Shown here in pieces: positions 41,130 to 47,246 of a DNA stretch of 64,000 nucleotides (position 1 is its first letter; every line of letters starts with the position of its first letter). Origin of the DNA: Vibrio coralliilyticus (lineage in GTDB: Bacteria; Pseudomonadota; Gammaproteobacteria; Enterobacterales; Vibrionaceae); the NCBI RefSeq assembly GCF_024449095.1, contig NZ_CP024627.1, positions 1,798,001 to 1,862,000 on the forward strand. The letters run 5' to 3'. Position numbers and translations under genes: made by a program. The notes under the pieces were generated by a model that did not search any database, was not told where the DNA came from, and saw only the letters and a program-made list of their open reading frames with translations.

Positions 41130-42263
41130 TTATTCGACACTCCACTGTGAGAGCGAGCGTTTGAAATCTGAATAATCGAATTCATTTAGCTTCTGAATTT
41201 CACCGCCTGAGCGTTCACAGTACACAGAAGGCATTCTTAAGCCGTTAAACCAGTTAAGCTTCACCATTGTATAGCCCGCACTATCTAAGATATGAAGACG
41301 CTGACCTATTTCCAATGGTTTATCAAAGCTAGCTTCACAGAACTGATCACCCGCCAAACATGAACAAGAGCCAATCACATACCCATGCTCACCTTTATCC
41401 GAAGCTTCTAGAATAGAAGCGGGTTCATTGTAAATTAGCGTATCCAAGCGATGAGCTTCAGTTGCAGAATCAACAATCGCTGTTTTTTTAACGTTCTCAA
41501 CGATATCCACCACGGTCACAACCAAGTCTGTTGTCTTGGTGATGATAGCTTCACCCGGTTCAAGGTACATTTGAACACCGTGCTTCTCAGAAAAGGCTTT
41601 AAGCGCTAAGCCAAGTTTTTCGATGTCGTAGCCCGGCCAGGTAAAAAACACACCTCCGCCCATACTCACCCAGTCAAGCTTATCCAAGTACTGACCAAAT
41701 TGCTCTGAGATGGAGCCAAGCAGACCGATAAACGCGTCGACGTCTTTGTTCTCACAATTCATGTGGAACATCACACCGTCAATATCTTCAAAGACTTCTG
41801 GATCAATATGGTCCGCTTGCACACCAAGACGAGAAAACTGACGCGCTGGATTCGCTAAATCTTGCCCGGCATAACTCACACCTGGGTTAAGACGTAAACC
41901 CAGCGAAGCCTTTCCTTCTACAATGTGTCTATATGCAGCCAATTGATTTTGTGAGTTAAAAATCATTTTGTCGCAAATATCAGCCACATCACGTACATCA
42001 TCCTCACTGTATCCGACACTGTACGCGTGAGTTTCACCACCAAAAGTTTCATGCCCCAGTTTGACCTCGAACGGGCCTGAGCTCGTTGTGCCATCCAAGT
42101 AAGGCTTGATGATGTCGAAAACACCCCATGTAGAAAAACACTTCAACGCCAATACCAGCTTCACACCCGAGATTTCTTTGAGTTGCTTGGCTTTTTCTAG
42201 ATTTTCGACCAACTTATCTTCATTGATCATAAAGTATGGTGTTTTCAGTTCGTTTTTTTGCAT
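41130..42263 (-). CDS. nspC: Carboxynorspermidine decarboxylase
   Basis: This encodes 377 residues, a PLP fold-III (alanine racemase-like) decarboxylase. The PLP lysine is Lys41 in [12 protein letters not shown]; the later [20 protein letters not shown] and [11 protein letters not shown] motifs are typical. It decarboxylates carboxynorspermidine (or carboxyspermidine) to norspermidine (or spermidine). It is the third gene of the norspermidine operon, 97 bases behind the dehydrogenase. Confidence 0.95.
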
Positions 42264-42360: not shown

Positions 42361-43605
42361 TTACTTTAGTTTGTGGATAACAGGTTGACCCGGCTCTAGT
42401 TCCTGAACATGCCAATCAAGACCAATGCTTGGCATAGTCTCAAGGAATGGGTCTGGATTGAGCTGTTCCATATTGAACACACCTTTATCCGCCCACTCAC
42501 CACGGAAGAACTGAAGTGCAGCGGTGATCGCTGGTACACCTGTGGTGTAAGAAATTGCTTGATGCTCAACGTCTTCGTACGCGACTTCATGATCAGCGTT
42601 ATTGTAGATAAATACGCTACGCTGCTTGCCATCTTTCGTACCCTGAACCCAAGTACCGATACAAGTTTTACCTGTATAACCCGGAGCAAGAGAAGTTGGG
42701 TCTGGCAGCAGTGCTTTAAGTACATGTAGAGGCTGTACAACCGTACCATCGTGAAGCGTTAGCGGATCTGGGCTTAGTAAGCCGATGTCACGCATGCAGT
42801 TGAAGTAGTTCAGGTATTTGTCACCAAAGCCCATCCAGAACTCGATACGTTTAGCTGGAATGAACTCTTGCATAGAACGAACTTCATCGTGCGCCATAGA
42901 GTACACTTTGTGCTTGCCCACTAGCGGGAATTCAAACTCAAGCATGCGCGAATGACACGGAACCTGTTTCCACTCTTCATTTTCCCAGTAGAAAGAGTCC
43001 CCTTGGATTTCAAGCATATTGGTTTCTGGGTCGAAGTTGGTCGCGAACTTCTTACCGTGATCACCTGCATTTACATCCATTACGTCAATGGTGTCGATTT
43101 CATCAAACAGATGCTTCACTGCGTAAGCTGCAAATACCGAAACCACGCCCGGATCGAAACCAGCACCCAAAATACCTGTGATGCCCGCTTCAGCGAACTT
43201 CTCACGGTAACCCCACTGCCAATCGTAAGCTTGAGGAACTTGCTGGCCTTCAGAACATAGATCAACAGCAACAGAGGTATCTAGGTAGTTCACTTTTGCT
43301 TGGTAACATGCTTCCATGATCGTCATGTTAACCCAAGGAGGGCCTGCGTTAATAACAAGGTCAGGCTGAACTTCTTTAATAAGAGCAACTAATGCATCAA
43401 CGTCATCCGCATCAACAGCACGCGCTTCCAGTTTCTTCGATGGATCTTTCAGGTTGTTTTTCTTCTGAATAGATTCGATGATTTTTTCACACTTGCTCAC
43501 GGTACGCGATGCAATGGTGATGTCACCCAGTACTTCGTTGTTTTGCGCAGCTTTATGTGCAACTACCCAGCCAACGCCGCCTGCACCAATCTGTAGAATT
43601 GCCAT
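42361..43605 (-). CDS. Carboxynorspermidine dehydrogenase (synthase)
   Basis: This encodes 414 residues of the saccharopine dehydrogenase-like family. The N-terminal Rossmann motif reads QIGAGGVGWVVAHKAA, and GPPWVNMTIMEACYQAKVNYLDT is the family core. In vibrios it condenses L-aspartate semialdehyde with 1,3-diaminopropane and NADPH. It lies between the fused aminotransferase/decarboxylase and nspC, so all three steps are in one operon. Confidence 0.93.
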   Translation of the reverse strand: MAILQIGAGGVGWVVAHKAAQNNEVLGDITIASRTVSKCEKIIESIQKKNNLKDPSKKLEARAVDADDVDALVALIKEVQPDLVINAGPPWVNMTIMEACYQAKVNYLDTSVAVDLCSEGQQVPQAYDWQWGYREKFAEAGITGILGAGFDPGVVSVFAAYAVKHLFDEIDTIDVMDVNAGDHGKKFATNFDPETNMLEIQGDSFYWENEEWKQVPCHSRMLEFEFPLVGKHKVYSMAHDEVRSMQEFIPAKRIEFWMGFGDKYLNYFNCMRDIGLLSPDPLTLHDGTVVQPLHVLKALLPDPTSLAPGYTGKTCIGTWVQGTKDGKQRSVFIYNNADHEVAYEDVEHQAISYTTGVPAITAALQFFRGEWADKGVFNMEQLNPDPFLETMPSIGLDWHVQELEPGQPVIHKLK

Positions 43606-43623: not shown

Positions 43624-46521
43624 TTACGCCAGCTCAGCAGCTAGCTTATTGATTTTAATTAGTAAAGATTCAAAATCAGCCATCGTCAGGCACGGATTAA
43701 GAATCGTAAATTTCAATGCGGTTTTACCATCAACAATGGTTTCACCTAATACCGCAACGCCACGAGTCAACGCTTCTAGTCTTACGACTTTGTTCAGCTC
43801 GTCCAGATCCGCTACTTGAGCATTTGCTACGCGGAATAACACGGTCGACAATGATGGCTCAGCCAACAATTCTAAGTTGTCGTCGCTACGAACGAGCTCC
43901 GCCACTTGCTGAGTTTGTTCGAGAAGATGGTCATACATTGCACCCAATGTATCTGGACCAACATTCTGCATCGTCATAAAGACTTTCAATGCGTCGAATC
44001 GCTTCGTCGTCGCAATCGACTTATCTACCAAGTTAGGCAACTCATCATGCTCACGGTTGAGGTAATCCGCATGATGCAGCAGATACTTGAAGTTGTGTTT
44101 TTGTTTAAGTAACAAAGCCCCACAACTGATCGTTTGGTAGAACAGCTTGTGGAAGTCAACGCTGACTGAGTCTGCGCGCTCAATACCCGCTAGACGTTCT
44201 TTGTGGCGGCTTAAAATCAGTGCACCACCGTAAGCACCATCAACATGCATCCACATCTGGTGTTTTTGCGCTGCATCGGCAATCACATTCAAATCATCAA
44301 TTGCACCATGGTCAGTGGTTCCTGCCGTCCCAACGATGGCAAATGGAATCAACCCTTGAGATTTCGCCTCGCTAATCACTTCATCAAGATGAGCGACATC
44401 CATCGTGCCGTTGCTATGAGCATCAACGGTTAGCACCGCTTTCTCGCCTAACCCCATCCAAGATGCAGATTTCTGAACCGTGAAATGAGATTTCTTCGAG
44501 CAAATAATACGCAGTTTGTCGGCGTAATCCGGCAATCCAAATTTCTGAATAGAGTGCCCTGACAGCTTGTCTGCAATGCAGTCACGAGCCAGCATTAAAC
44601 CCATTTGATTACTTTGGGTACCACCACTGGTAAATATGCCATCAGCCTGTTTGCCAAGCTCGTATTTCTCACATAACCAATCCACCACTTTCTGCTCAAC
44701 ATAAGTCGCAGAAGAGGCTTGATCCCAGGAGTCCATTGACTGGTTTAGAGAGGCAATCATCGCTTCTGCTGCCACTGCAGACATTAACGGCGGGGTATGA
44801 AGGTGAGCGATACAGTCAGGATGCTGAGTGAAAATAGCATTCTTTGCTACTAGTTCAGCGGTATCCGTGATCACATCCGTCAGGCTGACATTTTTGTTGT
44901 TTAGATCAACGGCATTAATCGCCTGTTCTAACTGCTTTGGGTCAAGCCCTGAATAAGGCGCATCGACTTGTTCAAAGACCTGTTTCATTGCCGCTGTTGT
45001 GTGGTTCATGACTTTGCTGAACTCATCACTGCCAGACTCACCGGTATGAATGAAATGCTGTTTCCATTGTTGATTGGTGTCTTGTGGCTCAACATGGCTG
45101 CCACCAGCGACCAGAATCGCCTCTTCCAGCACTCGAAGTGCGAAGTCGATCTGCTCAAAGGTGATGATCAATGGTGGCAGGAATCGAATCACCGAACCGT
45201 CACGCCCGCCTTTTTCAACCATCAGCCCGCGTTCAAGGGCTGCTCTCTGAATCGCCAAGGTCAATTCACCATCAGCGACTGGCTCACCAAATTTATTGCG
45301 CTCTGTACCGGGTTTACGGATTTCCACACCAAGCATTAAGCCCTTGCCACGGACTTCAGCAATACAGTTGACTCGTTTTTGAATCGACTCAAGCCCCAAA
45401 CGCAAGTACTGACCAGCAACGTTCGCGTGCTCAACAAGATTGTCTCGCTCGATGATTTCCAGAGCTTTCGCCCCAGAGACCATCGCCAACTGATTACCAC
45501 GGAATGTGCCCGTGTGCTCACCTGGCAGCCAAGTATCATGTTTCTTATTGATGACCAGGAGCGACATTGGCATACCGCCACCAATCGCTTTCGATAGGCA
45601 AAGAATGTCTGGCACAATGCCCGCTTCTTCAAACGCAAAGTTGTAGCCTGATTTACCTACACCACACTGAATCTCATCAAAGATCAGTAAAATACCGTGC
45701 TCATCGCAGATACGACGTAGTTCTTTCAACCAAAACGCAGGCGCAGGTACAACACCGCCCTCGCCCTGCACAGGCTCAACAACTATAGCGGCTGGTTTCA
45801 TGATTCCAGCTTCATCATCATTGAGTAGACGCTCAATGTAACGGATACCGGCTCTTGCACCTTCATCACCACCTAAACCAAATGGGCAGCGCAGACTGTA
45901 TGGGAAAGGCATAAAATGTACGTCTGACATTAGGCCTGTGCGACGTGCTTTTGTCCCTAGATTGCCCATCATGCCCATCGTGCCATTTGTCATGCCGTGA
46001 TAAGCACCACGGAAAGCAAACATGGTATTGCGACCTGTGGTTTGCTTCGCAAGTTTGATTGCAGCTTCCACAGCATCCGCACCTGAAGGGCCACAGAACT
46101 GGAGTACACAGTTATCACTCAGCTCTTGAGGAAGAAAATTCTTCACCGAGCGAATGAAATTCGTTTTTGCTTCTGTTGCGATATCCAGTGTCTGATAAGG
46201 AAGACCAGAGTCGAGCTGATCTTTGAGTGCCTGATTGATTTCTGGGTGGTTGTACCCAAGAGCCAACGTACCCGCACCGGCAAGACAATCTAAAAATACT
46301 TGACCGCGAGTGTCTTCAACCAGTGCGCCATAAGCTTGCTTAATCGCAATAGGAAGGCGGCGAGGATAAGAACGTACCGCTGATTCGTGCTCGGCCTGAT
46401 CTTGTAAAACCCGATCAGGTGTCAGATCATAAACGCCTTCTACAGCAGGAATCTGGGTGGAAAGTGGTGTTGCGATAACAGTGACGTTCACTGGATTATC
46501 GACTTCAAAGGCTGTGCTCAT
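43624..46521 (-). CDS. Fused L-2,4-diaminobutyrate aminotransferase / decarboxylase
   Basis: This encodes 965 residues joining two PLP enzymes. The first half (about 1-470) is a class III aminotransferase with Asp282 in FDEIQCG and PLP Lys311 in LSKAIGGG. The second half (about 500-965) is a group II decarboxylase with PLP Lys792 in VDFHKLFYQ. The first produces L-2,4-diaminobutyrate from aspartate semialdehyde; the second decarboxylates it to 1,3-diaminopropane. This fusion is typical of Vibrio norspermidine synthesis. RBS AAAGGGATT. Confidence 0.94.
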   Translation of the reverse strand: MSTAFEVDNPVNVTVIATPLSTQIPAVEGVYDLTPDRVLQDQAEHESAVRSYPRRLPIAIKQAYGALVEDTRGQVFLDCLAGAGTLALGYNHPEINQALKDQLDSGLPYQTLDIATEAKTNFIRSVKNFLPQELSDNCVLQFCGPSGADAVEAAIKLAKQTTGRNTMFAFRGAYHGMTNGTMGMMGNLGTKARRTGLMSDVHFMPFPYSLRCPFGLGGDEGARAGIRYIERLLNDDEAGIMKPAAIVVEPVQGEGGVVPAPAFWLKELRRICDEHGILLIFDEIQCGVGKSGYNFAFEEAGIVPDILCLSKAIGGGMPMSLLVINKKHDTWLPGEHTGTFRGNQLAMVSGAKALEIIERDNLVEHANVAGQYLRLGLESIQKRVNCIAEVRGKGLMLGVEIRKPGTERNKFGEPVADGELTLAIQRAALERGLMVEKGGRDGSVIRFLPPLIITFEQIDFALRVLEEAILVAGGSHVEPQDTNQQWKQHFIHTGESGSDEFSKVMNHTTAAMKQVFEQVDAPYSGLDPKQLEQAINAVDLNNKNVSLTDVITDTAELVAKNAIFTQHPDCIAHLHTPPLMSAVAAEAMIASLNQSMDSWDQASSATYVEQKVVDWLCEKYELGKQADGIFTSGGTQSNQMGLMLARDCIADKLSGHSIQKFGLPDYADKLRIICSKKSHFTVQKSASWMGLGEKAVLTVDAHSNGTMDVAHLDEVISEAKSQGLIPFAIVGTAGTTDHGAIDDLNVIADAAQKHQMWMHVDGAYGGALILSRHKERLAGIERADSVSVDFHKLFYQTISCGALLLKQKHNFKYLLHHADYLNREHDELPNLVDKSIATTKRFDALKVFMTMQNVGPDTLGAMYDHLLEQTQQVAELVRSDDNLELLAEPSLSTVLFRVANAQVADLDELNKVVRLEALTRGVAVLGETIVDGKTALKFTILNPCLTMADFESLLIKINKLAAELA

Positions 46522-47246
46522 GATTTAATCCCTTTGAAATGTAATTCTCCTGCCATAGGTGAAATGCGAATAGCAGGTACAGTTATCCATTTCGTGTTAG
46601 CAACCCAAATAGCGCGTACACGAAATCGCTCCATCATTTCGATGGACTACATGTTCAATCGGTAAATCAAGGTTCAGTAATGCTGCTGTTTTGCAAAACA
46701 GGGCATTTAGGAAGAACTAAGCTGATTAATGGTTGTTTGTTATGTGAGTTCAATGTTGGGTTTCCCATAAACATGCCGCTACAGCGACAACAGTATCCCG
46801 TCTATCGGCAAAAGGGCTTGCCGATACCTACCCTACGTAACGCTCACTCAGCCTGAATGCTCGCCACGCGTATCCCCCAGAATGTCTTTTTTTGCGACTC
46901 ACCTCCGAGATTGCGCGCGAAGTTATCACAAAATGAAAACAGTTCGCAACATTTTTTGAGTTGGAACTTATCAAATACCAACTTGTGTAAAACTAAAGTA
47001 CATTTCCTTCGCTATTCTGCATACTTGACGAAGTACCTCTACCATTGAAAACTCGAACCCTTTCTCAATCTTCTATTAAGAATATTAGTTCATCGACTAA
47101 TCACAATAAGTGAAGCTTGCAATTTGAAGGCTCGCCATATAGTGCCAATTTCTTCATGATAATTTCTCCTTTTTTAGACATTTATGTACTACGATTTTAA
47201 TAACTTACCACTAAATACATAACTGCCTTTCAATAAGGAGGACGAT
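46522..47246. other. Long intergenic region upstream of the norspermidine operon and the TolC-like gene
   Basis: These 725 bases hold no credible gene on either strand apart from a 35-residue upstream frame on the minus strand (46774-46667). The part towards the operon has many complementary segments (see the next entry). A candidate minus-strand promoter is TTGCGA (46949-46944) with GATAAC (46927-46922), spacer 16, which would give a leader of about 390 nt. The distal part up to the TolC-like gene is AT-rich and shows no operator I can name. Confidence 0.5.
46589..46847 (-). promoter_or_regulatory. Structured 5' leader of the norspermidine operon
   Basis: Reading the minus strand, a closing helix GTGAG (46847-46843) with CTCAC (46748-46744) encloses three hairpins: TATCGGCAA / TTGCCGATA (46826-46803), a GTCGC / GCGGC stem with one G-U pair (46788-46775), and ATGTT-GGG / CCC-AACAT (46774-46753). 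Further down are a 16-base palindrome (46686-46701), a TCCATC / GATGGA stem (46630-46646) and a 9-bp stem ATTTCGTGT / ACACGAAAT (46626-46589). The multi-branch shape is like a ligand-binding leader, but it matches no riboswitch class I can recall. Confidence 0.5.

Follow-up and report, generated by a model that had tools for sequence, protein, structure and literature searches.

The long leader in front of the norspermidine operon of Vibrio coralliilyticus raises the question of what kind of regulator it carries and how this regulator could act on the genes behind it. The operon lies on the minus strand of the 64,000-nucleotide stretch of DNA analyzed in this study (the window), as do the features discussed below. 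It comprises a fused diaminobutyrate aminotransferase/diaminobutyrate decarboxylase (43624–46521; Pfam PF00202 and PF00282, with NCBIfam TIGR00709 above its cut-off and a match to NF052646 below its cut-off), carboxynorspermidine synthase (42361–43605; NF043000, 869 bits, cut-off 800), and carboxynorspermidine decarboxylase, nspC (41130–42263; TIGR01047, 531 bits, cut-off 409). On these family assignments, the three genes behind the leader are the Vibrio norspermidine route. Norspermidine is described as a biofilm signal of Vibrio cholerae (PMC10914755).

An initial annotation, made from the sequence of the window alone, had interpreted the leader as an undescribed riboregulator. The Rfam search that it called for showed that the family is already catalogued: cmscan identified the RNA at 46754–46914, with near certainty, as a member of the cis-regulatory family RF02951 (DABA-DC-AT), with 136.4 bits against a gathering cut-off of 56.1 (E 2.1e-32) and a match extending over the entire model (1–149 of 149). 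This was the sole match above its cut-off across the 64-kb window. The family is said to have been described by Weinberg in 2017, and the literature that we searched contained no ligand or mechanism for it. Within a sample of the order, RF02951 was restricted to the window's own family (21 of 295 genomes). The element comprises helices P1, P2 and P3 and a terminal hairpin, P4, and is a candidate sensor domain.

The covariation of the helices was examined with 87 non-redundant sequences. In P1–P3, a structure derived from the very alignment on which it was tested, 96.9% of the cells pair, and both sides have changed in 302 cells as compared with 81.2 (sd 11.2) in shuffled alignments, none of 500 shuffles reaching 302; structures slid along the alignment gave 28–58 such cells. 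P4 was taken from the Rfam model and stood outside the structure used for this test. The leader thus contains a covarying structured domain, P1–P3, as riboswitches do, and the covariation in homologous leaders that had been suggested as a check was found. The domain is differently placed and built from what had been proposed, however. The conserved element starts at 46914, 67 nt upstream of the claimed boundary at 46847, so that the box drawn earlier contains its 3' half only. The three-hairpin junction is not a conserved architecture: the 5-bp helix said to close it (46847–46843/46748–46744, GTGAG/CTCAC) is complete in 5 of 86 sequences, that of the window included, and its 3' arm consists of codons of an upstream ORF (uORF), which is described below.

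Two further pairings could be drawn within this RNA. RNAalifold proposed that the GGG in the UAGANGGG segment (TAGACGGG, 46797–46804) pairs with CCC at 46760–46758, in the ribosome-binding site of the uORF; these bases are paired in 87 of 87 sequences and never vary, which provides no covariation support, and the invariance of the GGG and of the CCC (in ACCCAAC) supports the pairing neither way. The 5' CAAUC could pair with GAUUG in the P2 loop, and that loop varies. Regarding known regulators, the known spermidine riboswitch is a SAM-I variant, and none of the five matches that the 1-kb region of the leader gave up to E = 10 was to a SAM family. A search for a tRNA-like element found none. 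A scan for intrinsic terminators returned one candidate site, at P4, with 0.8 expected by chance.

The association of RF02951 with norspermidine synthesis is consistent. The aminotransferase part of the fused enzyme was found by tblastn downstream of the RNA in 104 of 109 loci (98.8% identical to that of the window in the most similar genome compared, G185), and decayed remains of the norspermidine operon follow in the other five, giving an intact or decayed operon behind RF02951 at all 109 loci examined. With the covarying helices, this upholds the earlier view of a structured cis-regulatory leader before the fused aminotransferase/decarboxylase. The idea that other genes stand behind RF02951 in some species was rejected, since the five BLAST-negative loci are truncated remains of the norspermidine operon. 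In these loci (L035–L039, genus g11), the leader RNA precedes operons that have lost the aminotransferase part; the decarboxylase part is left in L036, L038 and L039, and less is left in L035 and L037. An intact uORF is retained in four of the five, L037 having none. Among the matches listed, pattern matches of the same kind as genus g11 carry the name Aliivibrio.

The transcript probably starts at the first base of this RNA. Upstream of it lies a promoter (46920–46949) with the -35 element TTGCGA (46949–46944), an 18-nt spacer, and the extended -10 element TGATAACTT (hexamer 46925–46920). A TTG -35 element, an extended -10 element (TGnTAnnnT) and an A-tract are common to the 102 distinct upstream sequences obtained from the 109 loci: T at -34 is present in 98 of the 102, T at -14 and G at -13 in 88 each, T at -11 in 100, A at -10 in 89, and T at -6 in all. 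Because these elements are conserved, the transcript start is placed at about 46914, which would give a leader of about 393 nt. Both the promoter-like pair noticed earlier at 46922–46949 and the leader length of about 390 nt deduced from it are thereby supported. A generic sigma-70 scan reported no promoters here.

The principal finding concerns what follows RF02951 directly. The first codon past the last base of the model is the TTG start of a 28-codon uORF (46667–46753), which encodes MNSHNKQPLISLVLPKCPVLQNSSITEP and ends with TGA. Its ribosome-binding site (46754–46766) is formed by GGGA (46766–46763) and a strongly conserved ACCCAAC spacer; at least one of the words GGA, AGG or GAG occurs at most 16 nt before the uORF start in 108 of 108 loci, and CCAAC(A) is followed immediately by the uORF start, which is TTG, GTG or ATG. 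Our survey of 125 of 162 Vibrionaceae genomes with an RF02951 match (109 + 16 loci) found the uORF in 123 of the 125 loci, both exceptions being decayed. In the first set, 108 of 109 loci have the Thr-Glu-Pro-TGA end; the exception is L037, in which the leader runs into a deletion remnant. In the second, a later test set of 16 loci with weak RNA scores (28–56 bits), the uORF was present in 15, with 14 TGA stops and one TAA, the latter terminating a 33-residue peptide in L159 (G004, genus g5). The remaining test locus, L162 (G002, a 2.1-Mb genome; RNA 33 bits), has GTA at the start and ITK for ITEP, so that the switch appears to be decaying in this reduced genome. A further 117 stretches from named genomes among the matches listed, obtained with an RNA pattern that requires a start-like NTG and not the peptide and in species that partly repeat the first set, contained the uORF in 116 cases, all with TGA; 80 of these 117 listed matches were from Vibrio, Photobacterium, Enterovibrio, Grimontia, Aliivibrio and Veronia. 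Over the whole survey, 122 of 123 uORFs end with TGA. Release factor RF2 reads both TGA and TAA, and all 123 stops are therefore RF2-readable.

The codon pattern fits a translated frame. Among the 108 loci, the uORF has nine lengths (21, 23, 28, 29, 30, 33, 34, 40 and 52 codons) and three start codons (TTG 67, GTG 35, ATG 6). At its end, Thr is encoded by ACT (75), ACC (19), ACG (8) or ACA (6) and Glu by GAA (63) or GAG (45), while the Pro codon before the stop is CCT in 102. In 101 distinct sequences, the third-position entropies are 0.81, 1.35, 0.99 and 0.38 bits for Ile, Thr, Glu and Pro, respectively, and the letters past the stop are near random. Since a TEP end was the condition of entry, the invariance of the first two positions in the Thr, Glu and Pro codons is built in; hence the weight lies on the 108 of 109 loci that passed, on the varying third positions, and on two unfiltered features, Ile at position -4 (106 of 108) and TGA (108 of 108). 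In the 5.02-Mb genome from which the window was taken, the only match to a 15-mer pattern for ITEP-UGA lies at this uORF. The enzyme was searched for in 20 of the 35 Vibrionaceae genomes without an RF02951 match, and two of them, represented by loci L127 (G001) and L128 (G013), encode a nearly full-length relative of the fused enzyme, which in one of them is in pieces; neither genome has RF02951 or the uORF upstream of it, which indicates that the RNA and the uORF go together. It is very likely that a conserved, translated uORF directly follows RF02951.

Forty-codon uORFs in L019, L020, L023–L025, L027–L029, L031, L072, L073 and L076 contain a CPILQ(K/N)-like unit twice, with the ITEP end untouched, and the peptide seems to have grown by in-frame internal repeats. 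The 52-codon uORFs of L102, L104, L105 and L107 have a quite different middle and the same (I/L)TEP-TGA end. Searches of Pfam and NCBIfam with five peptides each and of the PDB with one peptide gave no matches.

The length and the N-terminus of the uORF drift, and only the (I)TEP-stop end is fixed; the leader thus contains, as in arrest peptides, a short ORF whose C-terminus is conserved at the stop. We propose that the conserved ITEP plus UGA (46667–46681) is a slow-termination, or ribosome parking, signal. In arrest peptides that sense a compound, the sensor residues keep a constant distance from the C-terminus. In the peptides of the uORF, one further block recurs, which is ISF-like. A permissive pattern located it in 81 of 86 peptides, at a distance from the end of 14, 15, 19, 24, 25, 31 or 43 residues (14 or 19 in 65 of the 86), and did not find it in the other five. 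Tunnel-sensing peptides differ in this respect from the uORF, in which the last four residues alone are fixed and the distance of the ISF-like block varies; we therefore place the sensing in the RNA. The termination signal itself has precedents in E. coli: Asp-Pro and Glu-Pro ends are reported to cause high ssrA tagging (Hayes 2002, as cited in PMC7246954), and Pro-Pro is reported to interfere with termination (PMC7246954, PMC3834316). In the own assay of PMC7246954, EP-stop reporters showed no drop in expression. Ribosome parking at the uORF stop is probably the working step.

How a parked ribosome could act on the operon is suggested by complementarity between the end of the uORF and the operon Shine-Dalgarno region (46525–46535; AAAGGGATTAA). 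In the window, GGATTAA (46531–46525) is complementary to TTGATTT (46670–46664) at the uORF stop. Of the 69 Vibrio loci, 43 (among distinct sequences, 30 of 55) have TCAAGG, the complement of the uORF Pro and stop codons CCUUGA, within the 28 nt upstream of the operon start; for other genes from these taxa, the count is 6 of 207. The preference for the Pro codon CCT fits this complementarity. The window lacks TCAAGG and uses the other register, TTGATTT with GGATTAA. The pairing predicted there between the uORF end and the operon ribosome-binding site amounts to 10.4 expected pairs against 0–5.8 with 12 foreign ribosome-binding sites, and pairing of the 4-base AAGG core with the last 9 bases of the uORF has a probability of 0.0.

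The comparison with foreign ribosome-binding sites was made for 100 of the 108 loci, leaving out four without a start by BLAST and four with an assigned non-ATG start. Vibrio loci have a mean of 4.21 expected pairs against 2.16 with foreign sites, and four Aliivibrio-like loci have 8.52 against 2.2. Per locus, this control is weak: a value of 3 expected pairs is attained at 40 of the 69 Vibrio loci but also in 230 of 828 foreign combinations, and 13 of the 69 loci exceed all 12 foreign sites. Outside Vibrio and Aliivibrio, there is no clear excess of pairing (1.53 against 1.42; n = 27, 12 of the starts being uncertain), and the 15 loci of other genera with safer starts have 1.58 against 1.19 expected pairs and TCAAGG in none. 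All of these counts, like those for the hairpins, are inflated by shared ancestry, as related species are not independent.

The RNA between the uORF stop and the operon start, 119–348 nt across 108 loci, folds better than expected. Situated 20 nt past the uORF stop, hairpin A (46630–46646; TCCATCG/TGATGGA) has counterparts in relatives, in which the sequence of the arms has changed and their complementarity has been kept. It was tested by counting stems against shuffles, the alignment having put the stems out of register. Of 55 Vibrio sequences, 40 have a stop-proximal stem of at least 6 bp, with 15.1 such sequences (sd 2.8, maximum 21) expected from 40 shuffles. Stems of at least 5 bp occur in 48 of the 55, 44 of them distinct, and start 18–23 nt past the stop in 39 of these 48. 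In other genera, a stem of at least 5 bp is present in 22 of 30 sequences against 15.4 (sd 2.5) in shuffles, and one of at least 6 bp in 6 of 30 against 6.5, with no excess. Since neither the pairing nor the stems of at least 6 bp give a clear signal in other genera, the output step may not be shared by the whole family, and the sensor RNA and the peptide look older than the Vibrio-type output step.

Two further hairpins were recognized by eye. The arms of hairpin B (46589–46626; ATTTCGTGT/ACACGAAAT) seem to co-change in an alignment of close relatives, and the region from +40 to +95, which contains it, folds with a mean z of -1.77 (n = 52). In the place of hairpin C (46549–46577), just upstream of the operon Shine-Dalgarno sequence, several relatives have a stem of other sequence; the corresponding region, -75 to -18 from the main start, has a mean z of -1.44 (n = 54). 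For the whole stretch from the uORF stop to the operon start, the mean z against shuffles is -2.69 in Vibrio (n = 56) and -2.21 in other genera (n = 30), as compared with -0.58 (n = 50) and -0.23 (n = 52) for coding-sequence controls. The RNA of the uORF, poor in G (G 0.12, C 0.26), is slightly more stable in its fold than shuffled versions (z -1.05, n = 37), and the RNA past the stop clearly so. The hairpins that the initial annotation had placed after its span are therefore borne out, among them the one at 46646–46630 by its complementary, changing arms. The palindrome at 46701–46686 is coding sequence of the uORF and is conserved letter for letter in none of the 11 close relatives compared.

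These observations can be combined in a two-stage model, for and against which we see the chances as even: RF02951 would sense, gate the uORF, and let a parked ribosome open the operon. More specifically, RF02951 (46914–46754) would most likely be an aptamer for norspermidine or another pathway compound; its 3' end is also the uORF ribosome-binding site, which folding of the RNA, with GGG:CCC across P4 as a candidate, would open or close. A ribosome that reaches Ile-Thr-Glu-Pro-UGA would release slowly and park there. In the Vibrio type, the uORF end would otherwise pair with the operon Shine-Dalgarno region and hide the operon start, and the parked ribosome would mask the uORF end, leave room for hairpin A, and free the operon start. 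At a high level of the end product, the RNA would close the uORF start, no ribosome would park, the operon ribosome-binding site would be hidden, and the operon would be off, a putative feedback by a pathway compound that is plausible; the G-poor uORF RNA might perhaps be open to Rho in the unparked state. Translation, slow release, the sensing part, the ligand, the direction of the response and the role of Rho are all elements that we infer. In its full form, with a norspermidine-pathway aptamer acting on the uORF ribosome-binding site, a TEP-stop parking signal and a lineage-specific output, the reading is tentative, and we rate it at somewhat less than even.

Other arrangements of the same parts have to be weighed. 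The leader peptide could itself be the sensor, as in TnaC and SpeFL, with a pathway compound in the exit tunnel blocking release at the Pro-stop and RF02951 setting the initiation rate only. Its TEP-stop end is extremely conserved, Pro-UGA with an RF2-read stop is also how TnaC ends (PMC8429421), and polyamine-related compounds act via the speFL and mdtU uORFs (PMC7815308). However, TnaC needs residues far from its end, while the only comparable block here stands at seven distances (14–43) and is missing from 5 of 86 peptides, and a large conserved RNA would be left unexplained; we consider a sensing peptide doubtful. Conversely, RF02951 could be a plain riboswitch or a protein-binding RNA that acts on the operon, the uORF being a small protein or a means of covering the RNA against Rho. 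The covariation of the RNA and the low G content of the uORF RNA speak for this arrangement. It is nevertheless unlikely: only the last four codons and the stop are strictly conserved, and length and N-terminus drift, which would be expected neither of a functional small protein nor of a frame that only keeps ribosomes on the RNA.

It could also be argued that there is no uORF and that the stretch behind RF02951 is a further RNA segment with a chance frame. The nearly fixed third position of the Pro codon (CCT in 102 of 108) does point to some RNA constraint. The codon pattern nevertheless contradicts this view and makes it extremely improbable: nine lengths are all in frame, start codons exchange, all four Thr codons are used, and the frame was found in 15 of the 16 loci of the later test set, one of which has replaced TGA by TAA.

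The two-stage model resembles known devices in part. The DABA-DC-AT motif of RF02951 is matched in sequence and structure over the whole model and in gene context, but the Rfam model stops one base before the uORF start. SpeFL/orf34 of speF in E. coli and Salmonella shares the polyamine gene, the long leader, the short uORF, a CU-rich stretch before the uORF stop opposite the main ribosome-binding site, and a ribosome at the stop that decides between Rho, release of the ribosome-binding site and alternative hairpins (PMC6386406). It differs in that the compound sensed by SpeFL is ornithine and the release factor blocked is RF1 (PMC8429421), and in that orf34 starts at +32 of its transcript (PMC6386406) and thus has no 160-nt RNA domain before it. 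TnaC, like the uORF described here, ends with Pro-UGA, an RF2-dependent stop at which parking controls the operon, but it requires Trp12, Asp16 and Ile19 besides Pro24 and serves a catabolic operon, and the accessible part of PMC8429421 describes no upstream structured RNA for it. MdtU of mdtJI in E. coli has a conserved C-terminus, a spermidine response, an involvement of Rho, and a predicted pairing between its C-terminal region and the main ribosome-binding site; it differs in controlling an exporter, and no upstream RNA domain is described in the accessible part of PMC7815308. SpeFL/orf34 and MdtU are likened here by description. In E. coli mdtJI, the stretch examined, which ends inside mdtJ, has no annotated uORF.

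The closest in composition is odc1 (uORF-25-1) of α-proteobacteria, in which a structured RNA and a conserved uORF with a UUG start precede ornithine decarboxylase, a polyamine gene, and for which a metabolite-controlled choice of start has been proposed (PMC8632094). It belongs to another lineage, however, and has a hairpin with a pseudoknot and a fixed 11-residue peptide. Its two starts are two nucleotides apart, whereas here the uORFs have 21–52 codons and end 119–348 nt from the gene.

The RF02951 RNA and the kind of device, including uORF-controlled polyamine genes and the RNA plus uORF of odc1, are therefore already known. The conserved uORF behind RF02951 was not found in the literature, Pfam or NCBIfam sources searched; the paper describing RF02951 is outside these sources and may mention it. 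As the uORF lies at the exact 3' end of RF02951, the start codon controlled by the RNA is most likely that of the uORF, and reporter fusions of the operon start only, or probing without translation, could therefore miss a response. The leader offers concrete targets, namely the TEP-stop, the TTG start and the complementarity to the ribosome-binding site, through which the control of norspermidine synthesis would become directly testable. If the two-stage model is true, an RNA-gated leader peptide joins SpeFL, MdtU and odc1 among the polyamine uORF switches. Farther upstream, beyond the promoter, an 18-codon ORF (47101–47157) lies behind a strong Shine-Dalgarno sequence (AAAAGGAG), and could be either a remnant or a further small gene.
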